64,000 nt of DNA from the NCBI GenBank assembly GCA_002127295.1, contig NFUV01000001.1, forward strand, positions 1,240,001-1,304,000, given 5' to 3'. Made by a program: the position numbers and the translations under genes. The notes beneath the pieces are model-generated. The model was not told the DNA's origin. It did not search any database and worked only from the letters and a program-made list of their open reading frames with translations. The stretch's first letter is position 1. Every line of letters starts with the position of its first letter. Positions 824-25,685 of this stretch are shown one piece after another. The DNA is from Chitinophagaceae bacterium IBVUCB2. Lineage in GTDB: Bacteria > Bacteroidota > Bacteroidia > Chitinophagales > Chitinophagaceae.

Positions 824-1894
824 TTACTCTTTCAGCAACGAAGCAACCGGCTTCGTTTTCGCAATTTTTTTTCGGGTAGACTCCCTGATGAGTAGCTCTG
901 TAGTCAGCACTTTGGTTTCAAAATCTGTTACCGGCCTTTTGCTTTCTATTAATTGCAATAATAAATTAGTTGCTACTTCTCCCATTTCAAATGCAGGCTG
1001 GCGAATCACCGATAATGGCGGGTCTAATAATTCTGTCAAATCGGTATTAGAAAAACCAACTAAACCAAAATCCCCAGGCACTGTATATCCTTTAGACCGT
1101 AATATGCGAAGACAACCCGTTGTTAATTTATCTGCTGAAGCAAAAATGGCATCTGGTTTATTTTTAGGTTTAAGTAATTCCTTAATTGCTTCTTCCACCT
1201 CTGTTAATATCATACCTCCATGCGCACAATACTTAATCAATGATTCGTCCACTTCCATTCCATGCTCTGTTAATGCAGCTTTGTAACCGGCTAAACGTTC
1301 TTTGGCAATAGATAAAGCAGGAGCATTGCTTACTGTGGCGATGCGTTTGTACCCGCTATTAATAAGATGGGTGGTAGCATCATAAGCTCCTTTGTAATTA
1401 TCAACAATTACTTTATGCGTTTCAATTTCATCAACAATACGATCAAAGAAAACAATGGGCATTCCCCTGTCGTGCAATTCTTTTAGATAGCTAAAGTCTT
1501 TTGTTTCGGTTGATACAGAAATGATCAATCCATCTACTGAACGGGAAGTAAGGTATTGGAGGTTTAGCATTTCCCGGTCTGCAGATTCACGGCTTTGCGA
1601 AATAATTACGTTGTAACCGTTATTGTAGGCAATGGATTCAATACCGTTGATGATCTGCGAAAAATAGCTATTCGCAATTTCACATACAATGACACCGATG
1701 GAACGGCTTCTTCTCTCTTTCAGACTAAGTGCTATCGGGTTGGGGTGATAATTGATCTTTTCTGCATATTCCAGTACCAGCTTTTTGGTTTCCGGGCTTA
1801 TTTCGTAGCTGTCCCGCAATGCTCTCGACACGGTGGAAGTGGAAAGTCCTAACGCCTTGGCGATGTCTTTTATGGTAACGGCTTCAAATTTCAT
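824..1894 (-). CDS. LacI/GalR-family transcriptional regulator, likely controller of the pectin locus
   Basis: 356 residues. Residues 7-27 form the LacI helix-turn-helix (VTIKDIAKALGLSTSTVSRAL), followed by the hinge helix around 50-60 (HPNPIALSLKERRS) and a periplasmic-binding-protein-like sensor domain from about 65 to 340 (IGVIVCEIANSYFSQI; VDGLIIS; GYKRIATVSN; PDAIFASAD; GLVGFSNTD). The length is typical. It is transcribed away from susC, with 611 bases between the two starts that hold a CCGG-centred palindrome of the kind LacI proteins bind. Position and operator make it the likely regulator of the pectin regulon; the ligand (galacturonate or a KDG-type intermediate) is inferred. Repression versus activation cannot be told from sequence. 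Confidence 0.9.
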   Translation of the reverse strand: MKFEAVTIKDIAKALGLSTSTVSRALRDSYEISPETKKLVLEYAEKINYHPNPIALSLKERRSRSIGVIVCEIANSYFSQIINGIESIAYNNGYNVIISQSRESADREMLNLQYLTSRSVDGLIISVSTETKDFSYLKELHDRGMPIVFFDRIVDEIETHKVIVDNYKGAYDATTHLINSGYKRIATVSNAPALSIAKERLAGYKAALTEHGMEVDESLIKYCAHGGMILTEVEEAIKELLKPKNKPDAIFASADKLTTGCLRILRSKGYTVPGDFGLVGFSNTDLTELLDPPLSVIRQPAFEMGEVATNLLLQLIESKRPVTDFETKVLTTELLIRESTRKKIAKTKPVASLLKE

Positions 1895-2092
1895 GGCAGA
1901 GCTTAGACTGTTTTAACCTTTGACTAAAATTAATGATTTAAACCCGGATAAAAAGCTTTACAACCATCGATTCCGACCTTTTAAAAGATCTTTATTATTG
2001 TCTTTTTGATGCTTTTGGAAAAGTTGAAAAATGATATGCATTTGTATTTTTTTGAAAGAAATACGAATTGTTGCCAATTGCCTCAAAATGAT

Positions 2093-2118
2093 ATCGTTAC
2101 CGGGAACGATTGCGTAAA
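2093..2118 (+). promoter_or_regulatory. Operator-like palindrome upstream of susC
   Basis: The site reads ATCGTT-A-CCGG-G-AACGAT followed by TGCGTAAA. The first 18 bases form a palindrome with one imperfect pair around CCGG. A second copy at 16127-16152 matches at 23 of 26 positions. A CG-centred palindrome beside a LacI gene is the expected type of operator; binding itself is inferred. Confidence 0.65.
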
Positions 2119-2158
2119 AAAATACTTCCATTTCTCTTTACTAAATGCCAGAACTGTG

Positions 2159-2167
2159 TAGACTTGT
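2159..2167 (+). promoter_or_regulatory. Candidate -7 promoter box for susC
   Basis: TAGACTTGT matches the Bacteroidota -7 consensus TAnnTTTG with one mismatch. It lies exactly 40 bases after the operator-like site, and the same nine bases occur at the same distance after the second operator copy. The start site would fall near 2173, giving a leader of about 330 bases. Confidence 0.5.
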
Positions 2168-2505: not shown

Positions 2506-5500
2506 ATGATCAAAATTTTTAAACCCGCCGTGATTTGTCTTTTGATACTCACAGCACTGAGTCCCTTCAGCCAGCTATTTGGGCAGGGAAGACAAATAAC
2601 GGGTACTGTTACTTCCTCCGAAAACCAACAACCAGTAGTTGGAGCTACTGTAAATGTTAAGGGCACCAAAGTGAATACTACTACGGATGCCCAGGGCAAT
2701 TACAAAATCAATGTTGATAGTAAGGCCACTACGCTGGTTATTACTAATGCCAGTTTTGTAAGCTATGAAGCAGCCATTAACGGAAGAACTGTAATTGATG
2801 TTGAGTTGACCGCTGAAGTAAAGGCAATGGATGATGTTGTAGTAGTAGGTTATTCAACCGTTAAAAGAAAAGATCTTACCGGCTCCGTATCATCAGTCAA
2901 TTCAAAGCAACTGAAAGATTTTCCACTTTCATCAGCAGCGGAAGCTTTGCAAGGTAAACTGGCCGGGGTGCAGTTAACATCAAGTGAAGGTGCTCCGGGT
3001 GCGGATATTATTGTAAGGGTTAGAGGCGGCGGATCCATCACACAGGATAATTCGCCTTTATACATTGTGGATGGAGTACAGGTAGAAAATGCTTTATCCG
3101 TTCTATCTCCACAAGATATAGCAACGGTGGATGTATTAAAAGACGCATCAACAACAGCTATTTATGGTGCAAGAGCTGCTAACGGCGTTGTAATCATCAC
3201 TACCAAAACTGGTAAATCAGGAAAAACACAGGTAAGCTATAACGGTTCTGTTGGCTATCGTCAGTTATCTAAATTTCAAGATGTATTAAAGCCTTACGAC
3301 TTTGTAGTGTGGCAATGGGAAAGAACAAGAGATAATTCAACAGATAGTGCAAGCTTTGCGCAGACCTATGGTACAACCTGGGATACATTGTCCAATTATA
3401 AAAATGTTGAGTTTATAAATTGGCAAGACAAAGTATTCGGAAGAAAAGCGAAATTCTCAACACATAATGTTTCGGTAAATGGTGGAAACCAAAATACCAC
3501 ATTCAATCTTAGCCTTACTGCCAATAGAGAAGATGGAATACAAATCGTATCTGGTTTTGACAGAAAATTGGTGAATTTTAAATTAGATCATCGGGCTTCT
3601 GATAAATTAAGAGTGGGTTTTACAGCCCGTTATCTTGACCAGGTGATAGAAGGTGCAGGTACTACAAATAGCGGTACAAGAACAACCAACCGCCTGCGTC
3701 ATACCATCAACTACCGTCCTTTTGAATTAGAAAGACCTGGATTTGGAATAGATGATTTTGACGAAGCTTATTACCTTGCTTCGGCCGGTGCTACTAACCC
3801 GATAATTTTAACGGAAGCTGAGTATAGAAGACAATACACAAGAGCGGTTTACTTAACCGGCTATTTCAGCTACAACATTCTTAAAAATCTTACTTTCAGA
3901 TCGACTGTTGGTTTTGATAATGCAAGTGTAAGAACGGATCTTTTTTATAGCAAGATAACAGGTACAGCCCGCAACTTTGCTTCTTTACCTGTTGCATCAA
4001 TCGGTCAGCAAAATAATTACACCATTAGTAACTCTAACACACTTCAATACACCCTTAATAATTACAAACAGCACCACGATATTACGGTGTTAGCAGGACA
4101 GGAAATAGTAGATGTTCGCTCAAAGCAAAATTCTATTGAAACCCGTTATTTTCCGGGTGATATCAGTGCTGAAAAAGCTTTGGCTAACATGGGCCTTGGT
4201 TCTGCACCAACTGGTTCTGCACAACCGCTTCCTACCTCTTTTGAAGAGCCCCCTGCCCGTATTGCTTCATTCTTTGGCCGTGTAAGTTACGGTTATGATG
4301 ATAAGTACTTAGCCAACTTTAACCTGAGAGCTGATCGTTCTTCAAAATTCAATTCCGACAATGGAACATTAGTATTCCCTTCAGGTTCTATTGCATGGAG
4401 ATTTTCTAAGGAAAAATTTATGGAGAAGGCAAGTTGGTTGAATGATGGTAAAATCCGGTTTGGGTATGGTTCAGTTGGTAACAACAGAATTGGCAATCTT
4501 CTTTATCAACAATTATATGGTGTTACAGGCCAATATGCTTTCAACCATTCTATTTTACCGGGTTTTGCACCAATAGCTTTATCTAATCCAGACCTTAGGT
4601 GGGAAAAGAATACCTCCAGCAACTTTGGAGTGGACCTGTCTATGTTTAGTAACAAAGTACAATTGACAATAGATGTCTATAAAAATAAAGCGAATGATCT
4701 TTTATTGGCAGTAGCTATCCCTCCAACGACCGGTTATACTACACAGCTGCAAAATATCGGTGCAACATCTAATAAAGGTGTGGAGATACAGTTAGGTACA
4801 ACACCGATACAGAAGAAAAATTTTAGCTGGAATTCTAATTTTAATATCGCCTTTAATAAAAATAAAGTAGAAAGTCTGGGTGGAATACAATCGCAAACAA
4901 GAAATTCAGGATGGCAAGGTTCAGATGGTGTTGATGATTATATAGTAGAAGTTGGCCGGCCTGTTGGTTTAATGTATGGCTTTGTAACAGACGGCTTTTA
5001 TAAGATTGATGATTTTAACTACAATTCAACTACCGGTGTTTATACTATTAAACCAGGCATAGCTGCAAACGGTGTGTATGGTGCACCACAACCCGGCTCG
5101 CTGAAATGGAAAGACCTGAACGGTGACGGTGCTATAACAGCAGATGGTGACAGGCAAATAATTGGTAACGCTAATCCTGACTTCACCGGTGGTTGGTCTA
5201 ACCAGTTTACCTATAAGAATTTTGACCTGTCAGTATTTATGAACTTTGTTGTAGGTAATGATATTTACAATGCTAATAAACTTGAATGGACGGACGGTGC
5301 TTTTCCGAACCTGAACACTCTTGAAGTTGTAAAAAACCGGTTTACTTATATCAATTCATCGGGTGTAAGAGTAACCGATCCTACAGAGTTAGCTAAGATG
5401 AATGCAAACGCAGAAATATGGGCACCGGTAAGAGTACAACGCTGGTGGTTACATTCATGGGCTATTGAGGATGGTTCGTACTTAAGATTTAACAATATCA

Positions 5501-5718
5501 CCCTTGGTTATTCACTACCAAAAACCCTTTTAGATAAATTAAAGATTGCTAATTTCAGAGTGTTCGGTACAGTAAATAACCTGGCTACGATCACCAATTA
5601 CTCCGGTTATGATCCTGATGTTACTGCCAGAAGAAGCGACCCGCTGACTCCTGGTGTTGATTTCGCAGCATATCCAAGAGCAAGAACATGGTTATTTGGT
5701 GTAAACGTTACTTTCTAA
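2506..5718 (+). CDS. SusC-like TonB-dependent outer-membrane transporter for pectin oligosaccharides
   Basis: I choose the ATG at 2506 (1070 residues) because it opens a signal peptide (MIKIFKPAVICLLILTALSP, cleavage near residue 28); the upstream in-frame extension does not. Domains in order: carboxypeptidase-regulatory-like domain about 30-110 (GTVTSSENQQPVVGATVNVKG), the SusC-type junction VVVVGYSTVKRKDLTGSVSS, a plug domain (PLYIVDGV; VLKDASTTAIYGARAANGVV) to about 235, then a 22-strand barrel ending in L-F-G-V-N-V-T-F. It imports oligosaccharides using TonB energy, with the SusD protein encoded 20 bases downstream as its lid. Pectin specificity is inferred from the neighbouring enzymes. 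Confidence 0.96.
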   Translation: MIKIFKPAVICLLILTALSPFSQLFGQGRQITGTVTSSENQQPVVGATVNVKGTKVNTTTDAQGNYKINVDSKATTLVITNASFVSYEAAINGRTVIDVELTAEVKAMDDVVVVGYSTVKRKDLTGSVSSVNSKQLKDFPLSSAAEALQGKLAGVQLTSSEGAPGADIIVRVRGGGSITQDNSPLYIVDGVQVENALSVLSPQDIATVDVLKDASTTAIYGARAANGVVIITTKTGKSGKTQVSYNGSVGYRQLSKFQDVLKPYDFVVWQWERTRDNSTDSASFAQTYGTTWDTLSNYKNVEFINWQDKVFGRKAKFSTHNVSVNGGNQNTTFNLSLTANREDGIQIVSGFDRKLVNFKLDHRASDKLRVGFTARYLDQVIEGAGTTNSGTRTTNRLRHTINYRPFELERPGFGIDDFDEAYYLASAGATNPIILTEAEYRRQYTRAVYLTGYFSYNILKNLTFRSTVGFDNASVRTDLFYSKITGTARNFASLPVASIGQQNNYTISNSNTLQYTLNNYKQHHDITVLAGQEIVDVRSKQNSIETRYFPGDISAEKALANMGLGSAPTGSAQPLPTSFEEPPARIASFFGRVSYGYDDKYLANFNLRADRSSKFNSDNGTLVFPSGSIAWRFSKEKFMEKASWLNDGKIRFGYGSVGNNRIGNLLYQQLYGVTGQYAFNHSILPGFAPIALSNPDLRWEKNTSSNFGVDLSMFSNKVQLTIDVYKNKANDLLLAVAIPPTTGYTTQLQNIGATSNKGVEIQLGTTPIQKKNFSWNSNFNIAFNKNKVESLGGIQSQTRNSGWQGSDGVDDYIVEVGRPVGLMYGFVTDGFYKIDDFNYNSTTGVYTIKPGIAANGVYGAPQPGSLKWKDLNGDGAITADGDRQIIGNANPDFTGGWSNQFTYKNFDLSVFMNFVVGNDIYNANKLEWTDGAFPNLNTLEVVKNRFTYINSSGVRVTDPTELAKMNANAEIWAPVRVQRWWLHSWAIEDGSYLRFNNITLGYSLPKTLLDKLKIANFRVFGTVNNLATITNYSGYDPDVTARRSDPLTPGVDFAAYPRARTWLFGVNVTF

Positions 5719-5738
5719 TAATTAAAAAATTAGTTGAA

Positions 5739-7559
5739 ATGAAAAATAAGATCCTTCAATCATTAACAGGCACAGTAATGCTGCTCGCATTATTTACAAC
5801 TGTTGGATGCAAAAAATATACTGAGGTAGAACCCGTATCTCAATATAGCATAGCACAAGCTTTCTCTGATGTATCGAATGCAACTACTGCACTTGTTGGC
5901 GTATACGATGAACTACAGGGAGATAATGGGTATGGTATCCGTATCAACATGTATTATCCTTATGATTCTGATGAAGGAATTGTAAGTGGTAATATTGATA
6001 ACGGAAGAAGAGGTGTAGGCCGCTATCAGTTATTATTAACCAATTCAGAAATCAGGAACCCATTTGTTCAATTATACAGGGGAGTTGAAAAAGCAAATCT
6101 ATGTATAGAGCAAATTCCGTTGATGCCACAATATACCAACGGCTCTGCTATTGAACAGGCACAATTGAAACGTTTGCATGGAGAGGCTCTTACACTCAGA
6201 GCACAGTTCTTATTTCAACTAATGCTTAACTGGGGCGATGTTCCGGCACCTTTTATACCTGCTTATAAACAGAAAGAGCTTTTCATTCCTAAATCAAACC
6301 GTGATTCTATTTATGATGTGCTGATTGCTGACCTGGCTGTTGCCAAAGATTTGTTGCCTTGGAGAACAGATGCAGGTCCAAGAAATGAAAAAATCACCAA
6401 AGGAGTTGCAAAAGCATTGAGGGCAAGAATGGCATTGCACCGTGGCGGCTACTCGTTGCGCAGCAATGCAATAATGGAAAGAAGAGCTGATTTTCTTACC
6501 TATTATAATATAGCAAAACAAGAGTGTGAAGAATTGATGGCCCGAAGAGATCAGCACACACTTAATCCAAACTACGAGGATATTTGGAGAAAAGTAACCT
6601 CCTTTACGTATGATCCACAAGGTGAAATAATTTTCGAAGTTGGTGCTGGTGGTGGAAATGGAAACAGTGACAGTCGCATGGGAAATTATGATGGCCCCAA
6701 CTTAAATAATGCTTCCCGATATGGAGCTGGTGGTGGTGGTATTGTGATGCTTCCTAACTATTTCTATGCATTTGATTCGGTAGATACAAGAAGAGATGTT
6801 ACTCTTACTCATTATCAAGTGAATAGCTCTAATAATCTTAAAAGCCAACGTCGTTTGGGTGAATTAAATACAGGTAAATATCGTCGTGACTGGAGAGTTC
6901 CTTTATTACCCGGCACTGTTCTGAATGTAGGCTATAACTGGTCTATGATCCGGTTTTCAGATGTATTGTTGATGTATGCAGAAGCAGTAAATGAAATAAA
7001 TGGAAGTCCTACCCCTGAAGCTGTTGCTGCGTTTGAAGAAGTAAGAAAAAGAGGATACCGTGGCAATACAGGAATGATTGGCACAACTCCTTTAGACAAA
7101 GCAGGATTTTTTAATGCTATCGTTAATGAAAGATTCCTGGAGTTCGGTCATGAAGGAATTCGTAAATATGATTTATTGCGTTGGAATCTGTTAACAACAA
7201 AGTTAGCAGAGACTAGAGCACAAATTCAACAAATCAGGGACAGGGTTGCACCTTATACTTATGTACCGCAATACATTTATTGGAGGAATAACGGCGAAGA
7301 GATTCAATATTATGCTGGTGTTGGCGCCCCTGCAAATGCACAACCTTTTTGGGAACCTACACAGGTTCCATCACCAACAACGGGTTGGACAAGGGTTGAC
7401 TGGGCACAACATCTTACAACTGCCAGCGCCATTGACGGAAAACCTTTATGGCAGGGAATAGCATCCTTTTTTACGCCAGGCAAGAGTGAATTGTTTCCGT
7501 TTGACCAGGGTACAATTTCTTCTTACCAGGGAAAATTGAAACAGAACCCGAATTATTAA
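5739..7559 (+). CDS. SusD/RagB-family surface glycan-binding lipoprotein
   Basis: Start taken at the ATG at 5739 (606 residues) because it gives a lipoprotein signal: MKNKILQSLTGTVMLLALFT then TVGC, with Cys24 as lipidation site. The longer frame (from 5688) overlaps susC. The fold is the TPR-like SusD fold: VSQYSIAQAFSDVSNATTAL near the N-terminus, ALTLRAQFLFQLMLNWGDVP around 155-175, KALRARMALHRGGYS near 225, and the C-terminal RFSDVLLMYAEAVNE and RFLEFGHEGIRKYDLLRW motifs. It caps the SusC barrel at the cell surface and captures the glycan. A strong terminator follows, so susC-susD can form its own unit. Confidence 0.95.
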   Translation: MKNKILQSLTGTVMLLALFTTVGCKKYTEVEPVSQYSIAQAFSDVSNATTALVGVYDELQGDNGYGIRINMYYPYDSDEGIVSGNIDNGRRGVGRYQLLLTNSEIRNPFVQLYRGVEKANLCIEQIPLMPQYTNGSAIEQAQLKRLHGEALTLRAQFLFQLMLNWGDVPAPFIPAYKQKELFIPKSNRDSIYDVLIADLAVAKDLLPWRTDAGPRNEKITKGVAKALRARMALHRGGYSLRSNAIMERRADFLTYYNIAKQECEELMARRDQHTLNPNYEDIWRKVTSFTYDPQGEIIFEVGAGGGNGNSDSRMGNYDGPNLNNASRYGAGGGGIVMLPNYFYAFDSVDTRRDVTLTHYQVNSSNNLKSQRRLGELNTGKYRRDWRVPLLPGTVLNVGYNWSMIRFSDVLLMYAEAVNEINGSPTPEAVAAFEEVRKRGYRGNTGMIGTTPLDKAGFFNAIVNERFLEFGHEGIRKYDLLRWNLLTTKLAETRAQIQQIRDRVAPYTYVPQYIYWRNNGEEIQYYAGVGAPANAQPFWEPTQVPSPTTGWTRVDWAQHLTTASAIDGKPLWQGIASFFTPGKSELFPFDQGTISSYQGKLKQNPNY

Positions 7560-16082: not shown

Positions 16083-16126
16083 AATCCCCTTCAAAACAGT
16101 CTTAAAAAAATCGCCAAAATTCCGAT

Positions 16127-16152
16127 ACCGTTCCCGGTAACGATTGCGTAAA
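16127..16152 (+). promoter_or_regulatory. Second operator-like palindrome, upstream of the GH28 gene
   Basis: The site reads ACCGTT-C-CCGG-T-AACGAT followed by TGCGTAAA. It differs from the susC copy at only three of 26 positions, and two of those differences swap symmetrically around the CCGG centre. This supports recognition by a dimeric regulator. Confidence 0.65.
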
Positions 16153-16192
16153 TAAAGAAACGCAATTCGTTGATTAGCAGCTAATATCTGGT

Positions 16193-16201
16193 TAGACTTG
16201 T
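16193..16201 (+). promoter_or_regulatory. Candidate -7 box for the GH28-uxaC transcript
   Basis: TAGACTTGT, identical to the susC box and again exactly 40 bases after the operator-like site. A TTG lies 20 bases upstream as a possible -33 element. The ATG of the GH28 gene follows at 16238. Confidence 0.5.
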
Positions 16202-16237
16202 ATAACGAAAATCTCCTCGTCAGGAGTCTCATTGCCA

Positions 16238-17902
16238 ATGAAAAAAATACTACTCATACTAAGCGCCTGTGCTATTGCTATCAGCTCTTTAGCACAACAA
16301 AATTTGTCTACTGGTTGGAAGGAAAAATTACCGGTGGTCATCGCTCCAAAATTTAAAAAAGACACGACAAACATTGTAAAATTTGGAGCGGTTGTTGATG
16401 GACATACATTAAATACAAAAAGTATTGCTGCTGCAATTGATGCGCAAACAAAAAAAGGTGGCGGTGTTGTATTTATTCCTGCAGGATTATGGTTAACAGG
16501 GCCAATCGTTTTAAAAAGCAATATCAATCTTCATCTTGCTACGGGAGCTACCCTCCTATTCACAAAAGATTTTGATCAGTATCCGTTAGTTGCTGCTAAT
16601 TGGGAAGGATTACCGCAGATGCGCAACCAATCTCCTATTTCTGCCACTGGAGCAACCAACATTGCTATTACTGGTAAAGGAATTGTTGATGGCAATGGTG
16701 ATGCGTGGAGAATGGTGAAAAAAGATAAGTTGAATGAAACACAATGGAAAAAATTAGTGGCGAGTGGTGGTATATTGAGTGATGATAAAAAAACATGGTA
16801 TCCATCAGAGCAATCATTGAAAGGTGCAAAAATGCCTGCAAACCCCGGGCAAATAATGGCTGGCCGTGATGCTGCCTATTATGAAGGGATCAAAGATTTT
16901 TTTCGACCCAATATGGTACTGCTTACCAATTGCAAATACATTTTATTGGAAGGTGTTACATTCCAGAACTCTGCAGCCTGGTGTTTACATCCATTAATGA
17001 GTGAACATTTAACGGTAAGAAATATTACGGTTAAAAACCCCTGGTATGCACAAAATGGAGATGGTATAGATGTAGAGAGTTGCAAAAATGTATTGATCGA
17101 AAATTCCATCTTCGATGTGGGAGATGATGCTTTATGTATGAAAAGTGGCCGTGATGCAGAAGGAAGAAAAAGAGCAATGCCCACCGAAAATGTAATTATT
17201 CGTGGTTGTACCGTGTACGCATCGCATGGTGGTTTTGTTATTGGCAGTGAGATGAGTGGCGGTGCCAGGAATATTTATGTTAGCAATTGCACATTTATAG
17301 GAACTGATATAGGCCTTCGTTTTAAAACAACAAGGGGTCGTGGTGGTGTGGTGGAGAATATTTTCATTAAAGATATTTACATGAAAGATATTCCGGGTGA
17401 AGCCATCTTGTTTGACATGTATTATGCCGCAAAAGATCCTATCCCTTTAGCTGGAGAAAAAAGAGAATTGCCAAAAGTGGAATTTAAACCGGTGGATGAA
17501 ACAACTCCTGTTTTCAAAAACTTCCACATCAGCAATGTGTATTGCAATGGTGCGGAGAAAGGGATATTCATTCGTGGATTACCAGAGATGCATATCAAAG
17601 ACATCTTCTTAGAAAATATGGTGTTGCAAGCACATAAAGGAATTGATGTGCAGGAAGCTTCTAACATCAGTTTCAAAAACATTAAAATTATTAGTGAAGA
17701 AACTAATCCTGTGATTGATGTAGTACATAGTGATAAAATAGTTTTTGACAACATTACTTATAAAGAAGGAACAAAGCTTCTCTTTCGTATCAATGGAGAA
17801 AGAAGCAACAACATTACTATTAAGAACACAGATGCTTCCAAAGCAAAAGAAAAGATCACCTATGAATTGGGAGCAACTGAAAAAAGCCTGACCAATAAAT
17901 GA
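16238..17902 (+). CDS. Glycoside hydrolase family 28 polygalacturonase, exported
   Basis: 554 residues from the ATG at 16238; the frame also offers a TTG two codons earlier, but the ATG gives the signal peptide MKKILLILSACAIAISSLAQ. The right-handed beta-helix carries all GH28 signatures: NGDGID (273-278), DVGDDALC with Asp296/Asp297, SHGG with His330, and IGLRFKTT in place of the usual R-I-K. It hydrolyses alpha-1,4-galacturonan, probably in exo mode on imported oligosaccharides in the periplasm (inferred from the insertions PMPANPGQIMAG and RDAAYYEG). It heads a tightly packed run with GH105, CE8 and the uxa genes and overlaps the next gene by four bases. Confidence 0.92.
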   Translation: MKKILLILSACAIAISSLAQQNLSTGWKEKLPVVIAPKFKKDTTNIVKFGAVVDGHTLNTKSIAAAIDAQTKKGGGVVFIPAGLWLTGPIVLKSNINLHLATGATLLFTKDFDQYPLVAANWEGLPQMRNQSPISATGATNIAITGKGIVDGNGDAWRMVKKDKLNETQWKKLVASGGILSDDKKTWYPSEQSLKGAKMPANPGQIMAGRDAAYYEGIKDFFRPNMVLLTNCKYILLEGVTFQNSAAWCLHPLMSEHLTVRNITVKNPWYAQNGDGIDVESCKNVLIENSIFDVGDDALCMKSGRDAEGRKRAMPTENVIIRGCTVYASHGGFVIGSEMSGGARNIYVSNCTFIGTDIGLRFKTTRGRGGVVENIFIKDIYMKDIPGEAILFDMYYAAKDPIPLAGEKRELPKVEFKPVDETTPVFKNFHISNVYCNGAEKGIFIRGLPEMHIKDIFLENMVLQAHKGIDVQEASNISFKNIKIISEETNPVIDVVHSDKIVFDNITYKEGTKLLFRINGERSNNITIKNTDASKAKEKITYELGATEKSLTNK

Positions 17903-19821
17903 AGAAATTCAAACGAATAGCCATTTGCATCTCCTTGTCTCTTTCTGTGCTTGGCACAAGTGCGCAGGAAGTTCCATTGTCGGAGCAAATGATCGCAACC
18001 AGCATGAAGATGTGGGCTGATTCTTTTGCGCTGGGGGGCAAAGCTGCCCGCTGGAGTTATGATATGGGAGTGATATTAAAAGGTTGTGAAAGAGTATGGC
18101 AAAACACTGGCAATGTAAAATACTTTAACTACATACAACGGTTAATGGACTTTTATGTAAAAGAAGATGGAAGCATTAAAGATTACAAACCTGACGAATA
18201 TAATATTGACCACATCAATAATGGCAAACTGGTGCTGCTACTCTATCGTGTGACAGGAAAAGAAAAATACCTTAAGGCCGCTAATTTATTAAGACAGCAA
18301 TTACGTACACATCCCCGCACCAATGAAGGTGGCTTCTGGCACAAAAAAATATATCCTTATCAAATGTGGCTGGATGGTTTGTACATGGGTGCGCCTTTTT
18401 ATGCGGAATATGCCAACCTGATGCAGGAGGATACAGCCTTTAATGATATTACTAACCAATTTGTTTGGATGGAGCAACATGCAAGAGATCCAAAAACTGG
18501 TCTATTATATCATGCATGGGATGAAAGCAAGCAACAACAATGGGCCAATAAAACTACCGGGCAATCGCCACATTTTTGGGCAAGAGCTATCGGCTGGTAT
18601 TCCAATGCAATTGTTGATGCGTTGGATTGGTATCCGCCAAATCACCCAGGAAGAAAAAAACTGATTGATATTTTAAACAGACTGGTAACCGCTGTTGAAA
18701 AAGTACAGGACAAACAAACCGGTTTGTGGTACGACATACTGAATTATAACGGGCCGGGTAAAGAAAAAAATTATTTCGAAGCTTCAGCAAGTTGCCAGTT
18801 AACATATGCCATTGCAAAAGGAGTTCGTAAAGATTATTTGCCTGCTTCAAAATTTTCTATTGCAAAAAGGGCATATGCTGGTATTGTCAAACAATTCATT
18901 AAAGTTGAAGACGGGCAAACAAATTTACACGGCACTGTATCTGTTTCTGGATTGGGTGGTAATCCTTACCGTGATGGAAGCTTTGAATATTATATGCGGG
19001 AAAAAGTAATTGTGAATGATCCAAAAGGTATGGGAGCTTTTATAAAAGCTGCTGGTGAAATGGAAATAAGCGGGTCATTACAAAATGGAAAAGGAAAAAC
19101 AATTTTACTCGATCGATGGTTCAATAGTGAAAAAAGAAAAGATGCAGCCAGCACTATGAGCTATTGGCATTATACCTGGCAGGAAAGATCACATCCGGGT
19201 TTCAATACGTTAGGATGGGTTTTTGAAAAGAATGGTACTAAATTATCTTCATTAGATATAGCTCCGACCGCAGCAAATCTTAAAGGTGCATCCGTTTATA
19301 TTATTGTTGACCCCGACCATGTAAAGGACAATCCAACTCCTAATTATGTTTCTGCAAAAGATGTAAAAGCAATCAGCGATTGGGTAAAAGCCGGTGGTGT
19401 ATTGTTAATGATGGCTAACGACAGTAACAACTGCGACCTGAAACATTTCAATCTTTTAAGCAAAGCGTTTGGTATCACCTTCACCGATAAAAGTATTAAC
19501 ATGGTGAAGAATGATACTTACCCGCAGGGAGAAGTATTGCCCGGTGCTAATAATCCGGTGTTTAAAACAACACAGAAAATGTTTTTAAAAGAGCTAAGCA
19601 CTTTAGCTATAAAAGCACCTGCAAAAGCATTAGTTACAAAAGATACTGATGTAATAATTGCAACAGCAAAATTTGGCAAAGGGACTGTGCTTGCAGTAGG
19701 CGACCCCTGGTTGTACAACGAATATGTAGATGGAAGAAAACAACTAACTCCTGATTTTGAGAATTATAAAGCTGCTGAAGACCTGGTGAAGTGGCTGATA
19801 CAACAAACAAAAAATAAGTGA
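17899..19821 (+). CDS. GH105 unsaturated rhamnogalacturonyl/galacturonyl hydrolase with extra C-terminal domain
   Basis: 640 residues with signal peptide (RIAICISLSLSVLGTSAQ). Residues 25-375 form an (alpha/alpha)6 barrel of the YteR type: WSYDMGVILKGCERVW, YNIDHINNGKLVLLLY, and the catalytic Asp159 in YQMWLDGLYMGAPFYAEY. It removes the unsaturated uronic acid that lyases leave at the non-reducing end. About 260 extra residues follow: a linker (STMSYWHYTWQERSHPGFNT) and a Rossmann-like domain (GASVYIIVDPDHV; AISDWVKAGGVLLMMAND; GTVLAVGDPWLYNEY) similar to DUF4350/class I glutamine-amidotransferase-like folds. The role of that domain is unknown; it may bind glycan. GH105 alone is usually 350-380 residues. 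Confidence 0.9.
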   Translation: MKKFKRIAICISLSLSVLGTSAQEVPLSEQMIATSMKMWADSFALGGKAARWSYDMGVILKGCERVWQNTGNVKYFNYIQRLMDFYVKEDGSIKDYKPDEYNIDHINNGKLVLLLYRVTGKEKYLKAANLLRQQLRTHPRTNEGGFWHKKIYPYQMWLDGLYMGAPFYAEYANLMQEDTAFNDITNQFVWMEQHARDPKTGLLYHAWDESKQQQWANKTTGQSPHFWARAIGWYSNAIVDALDWYPPNHPGRKKLIDILNRLVTAVEKVQDKQTGLWYDILNYNGPGKEKNYFEASASCQLTYAIAKGVRKDYLPASKFSIAKRAYAGIVKQFIKVEDGQTNLHGTVSVSGLGGNPYRDGSFEYYMREKVIVNDPKGMGAFIKAAGEMEISGSLQNGKGKTILLDRWFNSEKRKDAASTMSYWHYTWQERSHPGFNTLGWVFEKNGTKLSSLDIAPTAANLKGASVYIIVDPDHVKDNPTPNYVSAKDVKAISDWVKAGGVLLMMANDSNNCDLKHFNLLSKAFGITFTDKSINMVKNDTYPQGEVLPGANNPVFKTTQKMFLKELSTLAIKAPAKALVTKDTDVIIATAKFGKGTVLAVGDPWLYNEYVDGRKQLTPDFENYKAAEDLVKWLIQQTKNK

Positions 19822-20861
19822 AACGCAATAATACCATATTGATACTTTCGTTATCCGGATTATTCCTGATGCTGTCATGTGCCGTGGCACACGGTAATGC
19901 AATTATCAATAAAAAAATTATAGTAGCGGCTGATGGCAGTGGTGATTTTAAAACAATTCAGGGAGCGTTAAATAGTTTACCTGACTCATCTGCCACCGCA
20001 AGAACTATTTATATTAAGAAAGGAACATACGCAGAGAAAATTTATATCGAAAAAGGAAATATCATTTTTGAAGGGGAAGACAGAGCTAAAACAATTATCA
20101 TCGCCAGTATTGCAAGAGATGAATGGCGTTGCGGACATACGGATGATTGGGGTGTAGCTACATTGAACGTAGGCGCCAATGATATCACCTTAAAAAATCT
20201 GACCATCACCAATAACTATGGTTTTGATTTTAAAGAACGAACGATCTGGTGTGCCTCAGATACAGCAGCCAATAAAGAAAAGAAATTGAGAAAAGATGGT
20301 CACCAGATGGCATTGCGTACTATGAATATGGCCACGAGAATGAAGGCTATCAATTGCCATTTCCGTTCTTTTGGTGGTGATACGGTTAGTCCCTGGGAAG
20401 TGAATAATGGCATGTGGTATTTTAAAGACTGCATTATGGAAGGTGGTGTTGATTTCTATTGTCCGAGAGGATGGGCTTATGCAGAGAATTGTGAGTTCAT
20501 TACTCATTCCGGACCGGCGGCTATCTGGCATGATGGATCTGGTAATGAAGATTCAAAAACCGTATTGGTGAATTGTAAGTTCAAAGGCATTGATAATTTT
20601 TTATTGGGCCGGTATCATCGGGATGCACAATTCTATTTGGTGAATTGTGAATTTGCGAAGAACATGAGAGACTCAGCTATTTATATTGTTCCAACGGCCA
20701 ATAACCTTAAATGGGGCAAACGAATTTATTATTATAACTGTCACCGGGAAGGTGGCAATGATTTTAGCTGGTACAACAACAATCTTCCAGCGGGAGTAAA
20801 AGCAAGTGATATAAATGTAAAATGGGTTTTTGGCGACCGCTGGAATCCCGCAACAAATTAA
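19818..20861 (+). CDS. Divergent pectinesterase (CE8-like) lipoprotein
   Basis: 347 residues. The start is GTG inside a GTGA overlap with the previous stop; no upstream ATG is in frame, and the GTG gives a lipoprotein signal ending LMLSC (Cys21). The beta-helix begins IIVAADGSGDFKTIQGALNS, typical of CE8. Catalytic positions are kept in altered surroundings: GHQMALRT for GQAVA, GGDTVSP for QDTL, VDFYCPRG for DFIFG and LLGRYHRDA for LGRPW. Both Asp residues and the Arg survive, so activity is likely, but the Gln pair is changed. The upstream fusion protein is a canonical CE8, so this one may serve short or otherwise decorated oligogalacturonides. Confidence 0.85.
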   Translation: MKRNNTILILSLSGLFLMLSCAVAHGNAIINKKIIVAADGSGDFKTIQGALNSLPDSSATARTIYIKKGTYAEKIYIEKGNIIFEGEDRAKTIIIASIARDEWRCGHTDDWGVATLNVGANDITLKNLTITNNYGFDFKERTIWCASDTAANKEKKLRKDGHQMALRTMNMATRMKAINCHFRSFGGDTVSPWEVNNGMWYFKDCIMEGGVDFYCPRGWAYAENCEFITHSGPAAIWHDGSGNEDSKTVLVNCKFKGIDNFLLGRYHRDAQFYLVNCEFAKNMRDSAIYIVPTANNLKWGKRIYYYNCHREGGNDFSWYNNNLPAGVKASDINVKWVFGDRWNPATN

Positions 20862-20863
20862 CT

Positions 20864-22381
20864 ATGCAATTATCAAAACATACGTTAGAACAAATTGCAT
20901 CCCAACCGGGATTAGAAATACCGAACACAACCATTTTTGAACTGCCGGAGAAAGTATTGCAATTTGGAACCGGTGTACTGCTGCGGGGCTTGCCAGATTA
21001 TTTTATAGACAAAGCCAATAAACAAGGCATATTTAATGGACGGGTGGTGGTGGTTAAATCAACAGACAGTGATAGCAGTGCTTTTGATAAACAAGATGGT
21101 CTTTATACCATTTGTGTTCGGGGCGTAGAGAATGGAAAAATAGTCGAGGAAAATATTATCAATGCTTCAATAAGCCGGGTGCTGAGTGCAAAGACAGAAT
21201 GGGAAAGAATTTTAGAATGTGCTCATAATGCGCAAATGAAAATTATCATCTCCAACACTACCGAAGTAGGAATACAATTGGTACAAGATGATATTAACAG
21301 CGATCCGCCAGTTTCATTTCCAGGTAAACTATTAGCCTTTTTACATGAACGATTCAAAGCTTTTAACGGAAGTGCTGCAAGTGGAATGGTGATTGTACCT
21401 ACGGAATTGATCACTGACAATGGTTCTAAATTGGAAAGCATTGTGCTGGAGCTGGCACATCGTAATAATCTAGATTTCAAATTCTTTGAATGGCTAGAAA
21501 ATCACAATACATTTTGCAATACACTGGTTGACCGGATCGTTCCGGGTAAACCAAATACGGATGAAACAGCAAAATTAGAACAAGCATTAGGCTATAAAGA
21601 CGATTTACTAACCATGAGTGAAGTATTTCGTCTCTGGGCCATTGAAGGAAATGAAAAGGTGAAAGAAATTTTATCCTTCAGTAAGGTTGATAGCAGTGTT
21701 GTGATTGCACCTGATATTACTTTATTCAAAGAATTAAAACTGCGTTTACTTAACGGCACTCATACTTTTAATTGTGGTTTAGCATTTCTTGCTGGTTTTG
21801 ATATTACAAGAGATGCCGTACAGGATAGCTGCTTTGGCAACTTCGCTAAAAAACTGATGCATACAGAAATTGCTCCTGCTATTCCATTTGAAATTGATAC
21901 AAAGGTGAAAGAAGATTTTGCCAACAGTACGTTTGAACGTTTTTGCAATCCATTTATTAATCATCAATGGCAGAGCATCACCGTACAATACACTTCTAAA
22001 ATGAAAATGAGGAATGTGCCACTGTTGCAACGACATTATGAATTGAAAGATTCTCCTCCTCTGCGTATGGCGACTGGGTTTGCTGGCTTTTTATTATATA
22101 TGAAAGCTACCCGCAAAGCAGGCACTAAATATTATGGAGAACTGAATGGTGCGGAGTATGAAATAAAAGATGATTCGGCAGATTATTTTTATAATGCCTG
22201 GCAAAATACTACGCCAGATAAATTAGTAGAAAAGGTGTTACAGGATGAAGAACTTTGGGAAACAGACTTGAGCAAGTTACCGGGCTTTCTTCCACTGGTT
22301 CAGGAGCAACTAAATGATTGTATCAATAACGGTGCTTTGGCTACGATTGCTGAATTAGACACAAAACGAGTAACGGTTTAA
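20864..22381 (+). CDS. uxaB: Tagaturonate reductase (altronate oxidoreductase)
   Basis: Start at the ATG at 20864 (505 residues): it follows the pectinesterase stop by two bases, whereas the longer frame runs into that gene. It has the mannitol-dehydrogenase-type N-terminal Rossmann domain (LPEKVLQFGTGVLLRGLPDYFIDKAN), the SNTTEVG motif, and the C-terminal domain with CNTLVDRIVPG and LRLLNGTHTFNCGLAFLAGF (the KxxxxN-H region typical of this polyol dehydrogenase family). It reduces D-tagaturonate to D-altronate with NADH in the cytoplasm, the second step of galacturonate breakdown. uxaA starts on the next base after its stop. Confidence 0.93.
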   Translation: MQLSKHTLEQIASQPGLEIPNTTIFELPEKVLQFGTGVLLRGLPDYFIDKANKQGIFNGRVVVVKSTDSDSSAFDKQDGLYTICVRGVENGKIVEENIINASISRVLSAKTEWERILECAHNAQMKIIISNTTEVGIQLVQDDINSDPPVSFPGKLLAFLHERFKAFNGSAASGMVIVPTELITDNGSKLESIVLELAHRNNLDFKFFEWLENHNTFCNTLVDRIVPGKPNTDETAKLEQALGYKDDLLTMSEVFRLWAIEGNEKVKEILSFSKVDSSVVIAPDITLFKELKLRLLNGTHTFNCGLAFLAGFDITRDAVQDSCFGNFAKKLMHTEIAPAIPFEIDTKVKEDFANSTFERFCNPFINHQWQSITVQYTSKMKMRNVPLLQRHYELKDSPPLRMATGFAGFLLYMKATRKAGTKYYGELNGAEYEIKDDSADYFYNAWQNTTPDKLVEKVLQDEELWETDLSKLPGFLPLVQEQLNDCINNGALATIAELDTKRVTV

Positions 22382-24019
22382 ATGAAACACAGAGTTTTAA
22401 AAGTTAACAGTAAGGATAATGTAATTGTTGCATTGACCAATCTTTCAAAAGGAGAAACGATTTCTTTTGAAGGAGCTGACTATATTTTACAAGAAGATAT
22501 CCCGGCAAAGCATAAATTTTTTATGCAGGATATGAAAGCTGGTGATGAAGTAATAATGTATGGTGTGTTGGTTGGAAAAGCCCAGCTGGATATTCCGAAA
22601 GGCAGCCGCATGTCTACAGAAAATATCAAGCATGCTGCTGAGCCTTATGATTATCGCAACGCAACGTTTGAATGGCATGCCCCTGATGTTTCAAAATTCA
22701 AAGGAAGAACGTTCAATGGCTATCATAGAAAAGATGGAAAAGTAGGTACTGCTAATTATTGGCTTTTTATTCCCACTGTTTTTTGTGAGAATAGAAATTT
22801 AGATGTTATCCGTGAAGCCCTGCATAATGAACTAGGCTATGCAGTCACCGATAAATACAAACAATACACTCACCATTTGGTGAATGCTTATAAAAATGGA
22901 AGTTCGTTAGAGGAAATTGACCTTACTCCTTCTACCAATGGACAACATCGTCCATTTAAAAATGTAGATGGCATAAAATTTTTAAATCACCAGGGTGGTT
23001 GTGGTGGCATACGACAAGATGCAGCAATACTTAGTAAATTGTTAGCTGCTTATGCAGACCATCCGAATGTGGGTGGAGTAACGGTATTAAGTCTCGGTTG
23101 CCAGAATTTACAGGTAGAAGATTTCAAAGCCGATCTGAAAAAACATAACCCCAATTTTGATAAGCCTATTTATATTTTTGAGCAACAGCAGTCGCAAAGC
23201 GAAGAACAATTAATTGCTGATGCGATACGTAAAACATTTGAAGGGCTAATTGAAATAAACAAGCAGGAAAGAAAACCTTCATCTCTTGATAAACTTTGTA
23301 TTGGTGTAAAATGTGGGGGCAGTGATGGCTTCAGTGGCATATCTGCCAATCCATCTGTTGGTTATTGTTCTGATTTAGTGGTAGCATTAGGCGGCCAAAT
23401 ATTATTAGCTGAGTTTCCGGAATTATGCGGAGTGGAACAAGAATTGGTTGACCGTTCAGTAAATGAACAAACGGCCCGCAAGTTTATGTCGCTGATGAAA
23501 AGCTATGATGAGATCGTTACCAATGCAGGTTCCAGTTTCTCCATGAACCCATCTCCCGGAAATATTAAAGATGGATTAATTACAGATGCGATAAAAAGTG
23601 CCGGTGCTGCAAAAAAAGGTGGCACCTCTCCTGTTGTTGATGTATTGGATTATACAGAACCTGCTACAAAACCTGGTTTGAGTTTAGTTTGTACCCCTGG
23701 TAATGATGTGGAAGCCACAACTGGTAAAGCTGCCAGTGGTGCTACGTTAATTCTCTTTACTACTGGTTTGGGAACACCAACTGGTAATCCTGTTTGTCCA
23801 ACGATCAAAGTTTCTACGAACAGCAATCTCACTAAAAGAATGAATGATATTATAGATATTGATTGCGGACCGGTTATAGAAGGAGAAAAAACCATTCAGC
23901 AAATGGGTGAAGATATACTGGAGTATTGTATCAAAGCTGCCAGTGGTGAAGTGATTCCGAAAGCGGTGTTGCTGAACCAGGATGATTTTATTCCGTGGAA
24001 ACGGGGAGTATCTCTTTAG
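22382..24019 (+). CDS. uxaA: Altronate dehydratase
   Basis: 545 residues. The N-terminal SAF domain (about 1-95, HRVLKVNSKDNVIVALTNL) is followed by the UxaA/GarD catalytic part: GYHRKDGKVGTANYW, NHQGGCGGIRQDA, VLSLGCQNLQ, GVKCGGSDGFSGISANPSVG and FTTGLGTPTGNPVCPTIKV. Conserved Cys residues in GGCGG, LGCQN and VKCGG are expected to hold the iron centre. It dehydrates D-altronate to 2-keto-3-deoxygluconate. It is the middle gene of the uxaB-uxaA-uxaC run, and a block of inverted repeats follows its stop codon. Confidence 0.94.
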   Translation: MKHRVLKVNSKDNVIVALTNLSKGETISFEGADYILQEDIPAKHKFFMQDMKAGDEVIMYGVLVGKAQLDIPKGSRMSTENIKHAAEPYDYRNATFEWHAPDVSKFKGRTFNGYHRKDGKVGTANYWLFIPTVFCENRNLDVIREALHNELGYAVTDKYKQYTHHLVNAYKNGSSLEEIDLTPSTNGQHRPFKNVDGIKFLNHQGGCGGIRQDAAILSKLLAAYADHPNVGGVTVLSLGCQNLQVEDFKADLKKHNPNFDKPIYIFEQQQSQSEEQLIADAIRKTFEGLIEINKQERKPSSLDKLCIGVKCGGSDGFSGISANPSVGYCSDLVVALGGQILLAEFPELCGVEQELVDRSVNEQTARKFMSLMKSYDEIVTNAGSSFSMNPSPGNIKDGLITDAIKSAGAAKKGGTSPVVDVLDYTEPATKPGLSLVCTPGNDVEATTGKAASGATLILFTTGLGTPTGNPVCPTIKVSTNSNLTKRMNDIIDIDCGPVIEGEKTIQQMGEDILEYCIKAASGEVIPKAVLLNQDDFIPWKRGVSL

Positions 24020-24110
24020 TCCGAAAGTCAGGAAGACAGAAAGTCGGAAAGAAATAACCCGATAAATGAAAATGTCTTTCGGACTTATGGGCTTACCGTC
24101 TTCCGGACTT
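24018..24110. repeat. Intergenic inverted-repeat cluster of GTCCGAAAG-type words
   Basis: AGTCCGAAAG (24018-24027) is the perfect reverse complement of CTTTCGGACT (24076-24085). Related words lie at 24041-24051 (AAGTCGGAAAG) and 24100-24110 (CTTCCGGACTT). The first copy overlaps the uxaA stop codon. The block separates uxaA from uxaC and could fold into a large hairpin in the transcript. Confidence 0.6.
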
Positions 24111-24133
24111 GTATTATTATTAAAAGTGATTGT

Positions 24134-25576
24134 ATGAAACAATTTCTCGATGAAAATTTTTTGCTGTCGAATGCAACAGCACAGCGTTTGTATCATGAGT
24201 ATGCGAAAGACATGCCCATTATTGATTATCATAATCACCTGCCGCCAAATGAAGTGGCAGAAGATAAAACCTTTGAGAACATTACAAAGGTTTGGCTGAA
24301 TGGCGACCATTATAAATGGAGAGCTATGCGGGCTAATGGTGTGGAAGAAGCCTATATTACCGGTGATAAAACGGATTGGGAAAAATTCAGTGCCTGGTCG
24401 GCTACGGTTCCCTATACATTAAGAAATCCATTGTATCATTGGACGCATTTGGAACTGCAACGTTATTTTGATGTGCATGATATATTAAATGCGGATACAG
24501 CGAAGAAAGTGTATGAGGAAACTTCAGCGAAACTGCAAACAAAAGAATATAGCGTACGAGGTTTACTGGAGAAGATGAATGTAAAGCTGATCTGCACTAC
24601 AGATGACCCGGTTGACAACCTACAATATCATCAGCAAATACAAAATGATAACTGGTCAGTGAAAGTATTGCCCGCATTTCGTCCGGATAAGGCAATGAAT
24701 GTAGATGATGCGAATGGATTCAATAATTATTTGACAGGTTTAGAAAAAGCTGCTGATATTTCTATTAGTACCTATAATGATTACCTGGCTGCATTAAAAA
24801 AACGACATACTTATTTTGTAGCCAACAATTGCCGGGTAAGTGATCATGGTTTGGAAGAAATTTATGCGGAAGATTACACGGCTACTGAAATAGCAGGCAT
24901 CTTCGCTAAGATCCGTTCTGGCGGTAGTTTGTCATTGGAAGAAAACAGGAAATTCAAATCAGCCATGCTGGTTACGTTTGCTGAGTGGGACCATGAAAAA
25001 GGTTTTGTTCAACAGTATCATCTTGGCGCATTGAGAAATAATAACAACCGCATGTTGCAACAACTCGGCCCTGATACTGGCTGGGATAGCATCGGAGATT
25101 TTTCACAGGCAAAAACATTAGCCAAGTTTTTAAATCGTCTTGATACAAATAATACACTGGCGAAAACGATCATCTATAATCTAAATCCTGCAGATAATGA
25201 ATTGTTTGCTACCATGATCGGCAACTTTAATGATGGCACAGCGGCCGGAAAAATTCAATGGGGTTCTGCCTGGTGGTTTCTTGATCAGAAAGATGGAATG
25301 ACGAGGCAAATAAATGCATTGAGTAATATGGGATTGCTAAGTCGCTTTATTGGTATGTTGACGGATAGCAGAAGTTTTCTTTCTTTCCCCCGTCATGAAT
25401 ATTTCAGAAGATTGTTGTGCAATATGTTTGGTGAAGAAGTAGAAAATGGTGAATTGCCAAATGATATTGCATGGATCGGGAAAGTGATACAGGATATTTG
25501 TTTCAATAATGCAAAACAGTATTTCAACTGGCAGCTAGATGCTCAAACGGTAGCTATAGTCGCCAGCGACAAATAA
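24134..25576 (+). CDS. uxaC: Uronate isomerase
   Basis: 480 residues, the usual UxaC length. Family landmarks: MPIIDYHNHLPP (metal-binding HxH near the N-terminus), WLNGDHYKWRAMRANGV, LICTTDDPVDNLQYH, QYHLGALRNNNNRML, GSAWWFLDQKDGM and LTDSRSFLSFPRHEYFRR near the C-terminus. It isomerises D-galacturonate to D-tagaturonate (and glucuronate to fructuronate), the first cytoplasmic step. It lies 114 bases after uxaA, in the same direction, so it is probably on the same transcript. No uxuA/uxuB is present, which points to galacturonate as the main substrate. Confidence 0.95.
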   Translation: MKQFLDENFLLSNATAQRLYHEYAKDMPIIDYHNHLPPNEVAEDKTFENITKVWLNGDHYKWRAMRANGVEEAYITGDKTDWEKFSAWSATVPYTLRNPLYHWTHLELQRYFDVHDILNADTAKKVYEETSAKLQTKEYSVRGLLEKMNVKLICTTDDPVDNLQYHQQIQNDNWSVKVLPAFRPDKAMNVDDANGFNNYLTGLEKAADISISTYNDYLAALKKRHTYFVANNCRVSDHGLEEIYAEDYTATEIAGIFAKIRSGGSLSLEENRKFKSAMLVTFAEWDHEKGFVQQYHLGALRNNNNRMLQQLGPDTGWDSIGDFSQAKTLAKFLNRLDTNNTLAKTIIYNLNPADNELFATMIGNFNDGTAAGKIQWGSAWWFLDQKDGMTRQINALSNMGLLSRFIGMLTDSRSFLSFPRHEYFRRLLCNMFGEEVENGELPNDIAWIGKVIQDICFNNAKQYFNWQLDAQTVAIVASDK

Positions 25577-25599: not shown

Positions 25600-25638
25600 C
25601 AACGATACCGGAACGACTCCGGTAACGATACCGGTAAA
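25600..25638 (+). promoter_or_regulatory. Degenerate operator-like cluster upstream of kdgK
   Basis: Two overlapping CCGG-centred units are visible: AACGATACCGGAACGA (25600-25615) and GGTAACGATACCGGTAAA (25621-25638). They share GGTAACGAT and TAAA with the two better operator copies. A TATCTTTC box follows 39 bases later (25678-25685), close to the 40-base spacing of the others. Confidence 0.4.
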
Positions 25639-25677
25639 AGAGTAGGCCACAAGGCCATTCTTTCCAATCGCATAACG

Positions 25678-25685
25678 TATCTTTC
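25678..25685 (+). promoter_or_regulatory. Candidate -7 box for kdgK
   Basis: TATCTTTC matches TAnnTTTG at all but the last base and lies 36 bases before the kdgK ATG. No clear -33 TTTG is present 19 bases upstream, which fits a promoter that needs help from a regulator. Confidence 0.35.

Follow-up and report, generated by a model that had tools for sequence, protein, structure and literature searches.

A Predicted LacI-Type Operator at a Nearly Constant Distance Upstream of Pectin-Gene Promoters in Chitinophagaceae

Gene Content of the Locus

The window, i.e., the whole stretch of 64,000 bp analyzed (C1:1240001-1304000), belongs to a three-contig Chitinophagaceae genome of 4.0 Mb, and a predicted pectin locus fills its first 30 kb (Table 1). 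The susC and susD genes are followed by genes for a weakly PelZ-like protein, two GDSL esterases, an esterase-pectinesterase fusion, and GH43; then by those for an oxidoreductase, a DUF4440 protein, GH28, GH88, a pectinesterase, and tagaturonate reductase; and finally by those for an altronate dehydratase-like protein, uronate isomerase, a KdgK-like kinase, YhcH, KDPG aldolase, and an MFS transporter. The start codon of the GH28 unit was read from the sequence as the ATG at 16238. The protein encoded at 7667-9091 has no Pfam match and bears a weak likeness to the pectate lyase PelZ (129 bits, cut-off 840); a PelZ-like protein is also encoded directly 3' of the site described below in two other loci (L059 and L093).

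The regulator P0001 was assigned to the LacI-family transcription factors, with PF00356 and PF00532/PF13377 above cut-off (56 bits for the LacI helix-turn-helix and 109 bits for the periplasmic-binding domain). CcpA chains are its closest solved structures by sequence, and it shares 98% identity over 355 residues with a LacI protein of a Chitinophagaceae metagenome assembly (L188).

Table 1. Predicted features of the pectin locus (positions within the window).
Feature	Position	Strand	Basis
Gene for the LacI-family regulator P0001 (356 aa), transcribed divergently from susC	824..1894	-	Pfam
Operator 1, predicted; 26-bp imperfect palindrome, CG (or TG) every 6 bp	2089..2114	+	Family matrix, sequence
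TAAAAAAA, conserved A-tract flanking the palindrome (TAAAWAAA across the family)	2115..2122	+	Profile positions 10-17, unanchored motif
CAGAACTG, copy of the family-wide AAWATCTG element	2149..2156	+	Promoter alignment
TAGACTTG, predicted -7 box, susC unit	2159..2166	+	Box search, spacing
susC and susD, first genes 3' of operator 1	2509..7559	+	Pfam
Operator 2, predicted; same 26-bp element	16123..16148	+	Family matrix, sequence
TAAATAAA, A-tract of operator 2	16149..16156	+	Sequence
AATATCTG, AAWATCTG-type element before the GH28-unit box	16183..16190	+	Sequence, promoter alignment
TAGACTTG, predicted -7 box, GH28 unit; predicted start near 16205	16193..16200	+	Box search
GH28, GH88, pectinesterase, tagaturonate reductase, altronate dehydratase-like, and uronate isomerase genes, 3' of operator 2	16238..25576	+	Sequence matches
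Candidate third site (weak) preceding the gene for the KdgK-like kinase, formed by 12-bp tandem repeats with CG	25608..25643	+	10.5 bits
TATCTTTC, resembling the box but not ending in G; at +40 relative to the candidate third site	25678..25685	+	Family-matrix scan

Two Copies of the Predicted Operator in the Genome

The initial annotation had described two 26-base sites (2093-2118 and 16127-16152) lying in dissimilar flanks and followed after a fixed distance by identical boxes. This observation was confirmed and proved to be broader than first stated. The sites differ at exactly three positions, TAGACTTGT follows after 40 bases in both cases, and the surroundings match at 16 of 40 bases in the spacers, 12 of 40 before the sites, and 6 of 40 after the boxes. 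Scored by the family matrix, operator 1 reached 55.2 bits, the top score in the window, and operator 2 reached 47.0 bits. Each holds two LacI-type centres, here marked by a slash, at 2101/2102 (CC/GG) and 2107/2108 (AAC/GAT) in operator 1 and at 16135/16136 and 16141/16142 in operator 2.

The 23-base core GTTNCCGGNAACGATTGCGTAAA occurs twice in the window at up to three mismatches, compared with a mean of 0.00 in 100 shuffles. Good copies are also not scattered over the genome, where the same search returned three matches, the third lying inside an ORF with three mismatches. The box TAGACTTGT alone is unremarkable (two found in the window against 0.40 expected; two were reached in 7 of 100 shuffles). 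When core and box were searched together at +40/+41 in this genome, allowing up to three mismatches, the exact pairs were the two known ones only; seven further pairs were found with three mismatches, and the reversed control gave one match. A chance origin was rejected on the basis of the shuffles, the genome-wide rarity, and the gap-length search reported below. Uronate genes, which the initial annotation expected near such sites, do stand 3' of the second copy (GH28-to-uxaC cluster).

Conservation and Association with a LacI Clade

The core was found with up to two mismatches in at least 108 of 294 genomes of the family, and the reversed-pattern control gave 0 in every row listed. Its proposed identity as a LacI-family operator was supported by co-occurrence: among the matches listed, 113 of the 294 genomes pass the LacI ortholog cut (E up to 1e-130), and the core occurs in 91 of these 113 but in 17 of the remaining 181 (p 1e-36 by Fisher's test, ignoring kinship), 22 ortholog genomes being without the core at two mismatches.

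The 600 bases 5' of lacI were read in 90 ortholog loci, with counts that ignore kinship; three lacI matches (G137:C47, G144:C40, and G076:C246) were left out when 60 loci were taken in rank order. A site of at least 15 bits was detected in 74 of the 90 regions (66 distinct 36-mers), all of them pointing away from lacI, while the best score in shuffled upstream regions (n = 180) was -1.7 bits; the remaining 16 regions had no site at the 15-bit cut. The recognition helix STSTVSRALR is carried by 84 of the 90 orthologs. The two loci with the most altered helices (L118 and L123; SVSTISRALN and SKSTVSRALR) have no 15-bit site, an observation comprising two cases only.

Among the matches listed, three close relatives from the same genus have neither a lacI ortholog (E up to 1e-60) nor the site. 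In other families of the class, the layout is retained by some orthologs: TAAACTTG was found at 41 in L294, TAAACTTA at 40 in L298, and TACTCTTA at 40 in L299, and in three further loci (L292, L293, and L295) a box at 38 accompanies a weak site of 3.5-7 bits. No TANNNTTG was seen at 40/41 in eight distant homologs from family f36, which show 44-50% identity. That the geometry is general to LacI genes was rejected, as it was seen among 34 loci only in L124 (the window's own), L161, L167, and L168; this set covers five genomes and consists of 30 of 54 matches plus four further loci, 7 of the 34 being without a parsed LacI. One member of the LacI clade, L170, has no site and no SusC upstream.

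Architecture of the Predicted Operator

Unanchored expectation-maximisation on the lacI upstream regions yielded TGNNAWCGWTNYCGGKAACGWTTGCGTAAAWAAA, and the element follows the pattern TG-NNAW-CG-WTNY-CG-GKAA-CG-WTTG-CG, with CG (TG at the left end) every 6 bp. Its half-site GTTMCC resembles that of GntR. The element is an imperfect 26-bp palindrome about YC/GG, in which 8 of the 13 symmetry pairs match in a majority of the 74 sites; the remaining pairs about CC/GG agree in 12-34 sites. An even palindrome with a central CG defines a LacI-family operator according to PMC4052901, and the element corresponds to this definition, albeit imperfectly, the central CG being present in 70-71 of the 74 sites. 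Its length of about 26 bp lies outside the 16-22 bp of LacI-family operators. Since CG recurs every 6 bp over about 26 bp, LacI-type centres AWC/GWT and AAC/GWT overlap 12 bp apart, and overlapping sites, each of ordinary length, would describe the element better.

The CCGG palindrome of the initial annotation is of the LacI type as proposed, but constitutes only the inner part of the 26-bp palindrome. Likewise, a conserved tail does lie outside the palindrome, but it is shorter than first described: TTGCG fits the palindrome with CG every 6 bp and forms its outer arm, so that only TAAAWAAA remains outside. This A-tract is conserved as strongly as the core, both in the profile and in the unanchored motif. 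A second protein may be involved but is not needed.

Conservation is uneven along the element. The left arm of the palindrome is weaker, scoring below 0 in 7 of the 74 sites, and the right 22 bp reach at least 19.6 bits in all of them. The conserved core comprises the 22 bp on the promoter-proximal side and is not a symmetrical site about CCGG. Because the left arm is lost in these seven sites and the right 22 bp are kept, the promoter-proximal centre (AAC/GWT) is probably the essential one. As to the true centre, left-arm loss favours AAC/GWT, and palindromes near two paralogs favour CC/GG.

Spacing and Promoter Structure

The recurrence of the spacing across relatives supports the proposal of the initial annotation that the fixed distance is under selection. 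The exact value of 40 bases applies within the window, but is 40 or 41, rarely 39, among relatives. Counted after GTAAA in 73 of the 74 sites (one lies too close to the sequence end), TANNNTTG starts at +40 in 40 sites, at +41 in 17, and at +39 in 2, whereas all other offsets from -100 to +150 together hold 18 boxes. A pair search blind to lacI in 248 genomes of the order, with gaps of 22-51 (30 lengths) allowed, returned 38 pairs with three adjacent gaps only, namely 35 (2), 36 (28), and 37 (8). All of them come from the window's family, in which 27 of 60 genomes are represented; the 188 genomes from other families yielded no pair. In 80 loci from named genomes, overlapping in part with the 90-locus set, the site was found in 71, and 67 of these 71, with Mucilaginibacter, Hufsiella, and another Sphingobacteriaceae record among them, have the box at 40 or 41.

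Alignment of 60 distinct promoters on TA gave AAWATCTG-NN-TAGMMTTG. The box resembles the Bacteroidota sigma-A promoter TAnnTTTG (PMC7366714, PMC9723704) in its TA and TTG and in its width of eight bases, but differs in having A or C as fifth base in 59 of the 60 promoters (TANNNTTG), a preceding AAWATCTG, and no -33 TTG. The AAWATCTG stretch lies 3-10 bases before the TA and is perhaps an extended -7 element. Between -40 and -11 before TA, no position carries TTG in more than 3 of the 60 promoters, and these accordingly lack the -33 TTTG. Since Flavobacterium johnsoniae promoters likewise gave no -33 motif (PMC7366714), this lack is weak evidence of activator dependence. In Flavobacterium psychrophilum, the box spans -12 to -5, with TA at -12 (PMC9723704). 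By this analogy, the susC unit is predicted to start near 2171, and the AAC/GWT and CC/GG centres would lie at about -63.5 and -69.5, respectively.

Genes Downstream of the Predicted Operator

The expectation that the targets are pectin and uronate genes held for most of 97 distinct downstream stretches. The first gene matches SusC in 62 stretches, GH28 in 19, the GDSL esterase in 5, the PelZ-like protein in 2, and the pectinesterase fusion and GH88 in 1 each; 7 stretches had no match to a window protein. The SusC share is inflated because many loci were taken for adjoining lacI; those from the core search and the lacI-blind pair search were selected without regard to gene. In three of the seven unmatched stretches, the first gene encodes a KduD-type dehydrogenase, whose 327-336 bits fall barely short of the cut-off of 338.9 bits; a KduI-type isomerase comes next in two of them. 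One begins with an alpha-galactosidase and has no box; of the others, one each begins with a SusC-type protein, begins with an ECF-type sigma factor and FecR pair, or is too short. At L113, genes for an ECF-type sigma factor and a FecR-domain protein take the place of susC after the site, possibly representing a regulatory cascade.

Weak Third Site and LacI Paralogs

Between the uronate isomerase and kinase genes (25600-25640), the window contains a 12-bp tandem repeat with the CG rhythm (AACGATACCGGA ACGACTCCGGTA ACGATACCGGTA). The candidate third site found here fits the operator/box plan, but is weak and not significant alone (10.5 bits, compared with 9.9 reached by three shuffles). Among 12 kdgK loci, a similar array with a box at +39 was detected in three and a similar array only in one more; two others have arrays without a box at the right distance.

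Palindromes with five CGs in the 6-bp rhythm, composed of other letters and lacking TTGCGTAAA, were also observed upstream of two LacI paralogs, L125 of this genome (G000:C2 near 546181) and L171 of another. Two TGCAAYCGRTTGCA-type palindromes lie between a fourth LacI gene of this genome, L127 (G000:C2 near 333418), and a divergent SusC-like gene.

Proposed Mechanism and Alternative Explanations

The module is real, strongly conserved, and functionally coherent as judged from sequence comparison. We propose, with a probability of about 0.72, that the sites are operators of the adjacent LacI-family pectin/galacturonate regulator and serve as an activator site centred near -63. As the initial annotation had anticipated, the position fits activation, the predicted operator lying 5' of the promoter at a helix-constrained distance (57 of 73 sites; 38 of 38 pairs). 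Activation is suggested by this constrained upstream position, by the precedent of CcpA, and by the CcpA chains being the closest solved structures. A LacI dimer, switched by some galacturonate-pathway metabolite (the identity of the inducer is a guess), would occupy a fixed face of the helix, its centre lying about 63.5 bp 5' of the start (about 69.5 bp should CC/GG prove to be the true axis). It would then recruit RNA polymerase at a promoter devoid of a recognisable -33 TTG, with the C-terminal domain of the alpha subunit perhaps, as a guess, placed on the A-tract.

A more far-reaching version, which we advance tentatively and consider somewhat short of an even chance, holds that the LacI protein is a dedicated, obligatory activator of SusC/SusD pectin loci in Chitinophagaceae and some neighbouring families. 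It would act through a rigid module comprising two overlapping LacI-type centres spaced 12 bp apart, an A-tract contacted by the alpha subunit of polymerase, and, at the one distance allowed, a promoter AAWATCTG-NN-TAGMMTTG lacking a -33 element, with the overlap itself being functional.

Division of the element between two factors appears unlikely. In this view, LacI would bind the inner CCGG palindrome, while the TTGCGTAAAWAAA part would be occupied by a second protein or act as an alpha-subunit element, and this second factor would set the distance. Such a division would account for an A-tract as conserved as the core and for the CCGG-centred palindromes without TTGCGTAAA near L125 and L171, but TTGCG continues the 6-bp CG rhythm of the palindrome, and the left arm required by a CCGG-centred dimer is degenerate in 7 of the 74 sites, all of which keep the right 22 bp. 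Somewhat less probable still is that the LacI protein binds the element and represses, through an upstream hold on polymerase or through a contact that the fixed spacing serves, induction being its release. Repression is the role ascribed to most LacI-family proteins that have been characterised (PMC2329647), and the adjacency of site and regulator is compatible with either sign; an element that lies wholly 5' of the promoter, separated from the box by about 41 bp and spaced to within 1-2 bp, argues against repression, as does the family-matrix scan, which detected no second operator at the start site within the window.

Ownership of the element by another regulator, e.g., a different LacI paralog or a Crp-type protein, with the neighbouring lacI being coincidental, is very improbable in view of the strong co-occurrence, the constant orientation away from lacI, and the different sequences upstream of the three other LacI genes in the genome. 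In its favour, 17 genomes have the core but no ortholog at E<=1e-130 among the matches listed; some of these 17 are incomplete assemblies or hold more distant LacI homologs. Recent duplication of a promoter block, which would render the shared distance meaningless, is suggested by the presence of both copies in one cluster, 14 kb apart. It was rejected as practically inconceivable, because the spacers match at just 16 of 40 bases and many genomes show site and box paired in this way across spacers that have diverged.

Implications and Comparison with Known Systems

LacI-family proteins are usually read as repressors. Should the geometry reflect activation, the presumed sign would be wrong for a local regulator common in soil and freshwater Bacteroidota, and the motif would predict the LacI regulon directly. 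The strict spacing represents a promoter module in a phylum with little-studied promoters. Moreover, the 12-bp overlap bears on the puzzle, stated in PMC4052901, of how overlapping LacI-family sites are bound, and the loci would provide a natural test system for such unexplained operators if the obligatory-activator reading is true. Among the listed articles of the open-licence PMC literature, no report of the motif or the spacing was found. A figure on Gramella polysaccharide utilization loci (PULs) names a lacI gene (PMC5306329), and PMC12125979 concerns an AraC-type XylR homologue.

Within the same phylum, Bacteroides UxaR (BT0824), KdgR (BT0487), and UxuR (BT1434) are LacI-family regulators of uronate genes (PMC3878776, PMC4052901). 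They share with P0001 the family and the galacturonate/glucuronate genes as targets, predicted in the case of P0001, but differ in that the relevant passages of these two sources state neither a fixed distance nor activation. The pectin PULs of B. thetaiotaomicron were assigned to hybrid two-component systems (PMC3878776). Algoriphagus UxuR2 is similar in that it belongs to the LacI family and regulates two uronate loci in a member of the Bacteroidota (PMC5507952).

Activation by a LacI-family protein from upstream at helix-face-dependent distances was described for CcpA, which in Lactococcus activates from 21 or 31 bp 5' of the -35 (PMC2329647). CcpA is a global catabolite regulator acting on other promoters, whereas the present system features a local regulator, one distance, and a Bacteroidota-type box. 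Overlapping LacI-family sites were likewise described for GntR before gntKU of E. coli, and 110 operons have LacI-family sites about 13 bp apart, the mode of dimer binding being left open in that source (PMC4052901). The sites overlap in both cases; the element studied here is distinguished by 12 bp between the centres, asymmetric conservation, the A-tract, and the fixed box. The module is thus built from known kinds of parts, namely LacI-family activation (CcpA) and overlapping LacI-family sites (GntR).
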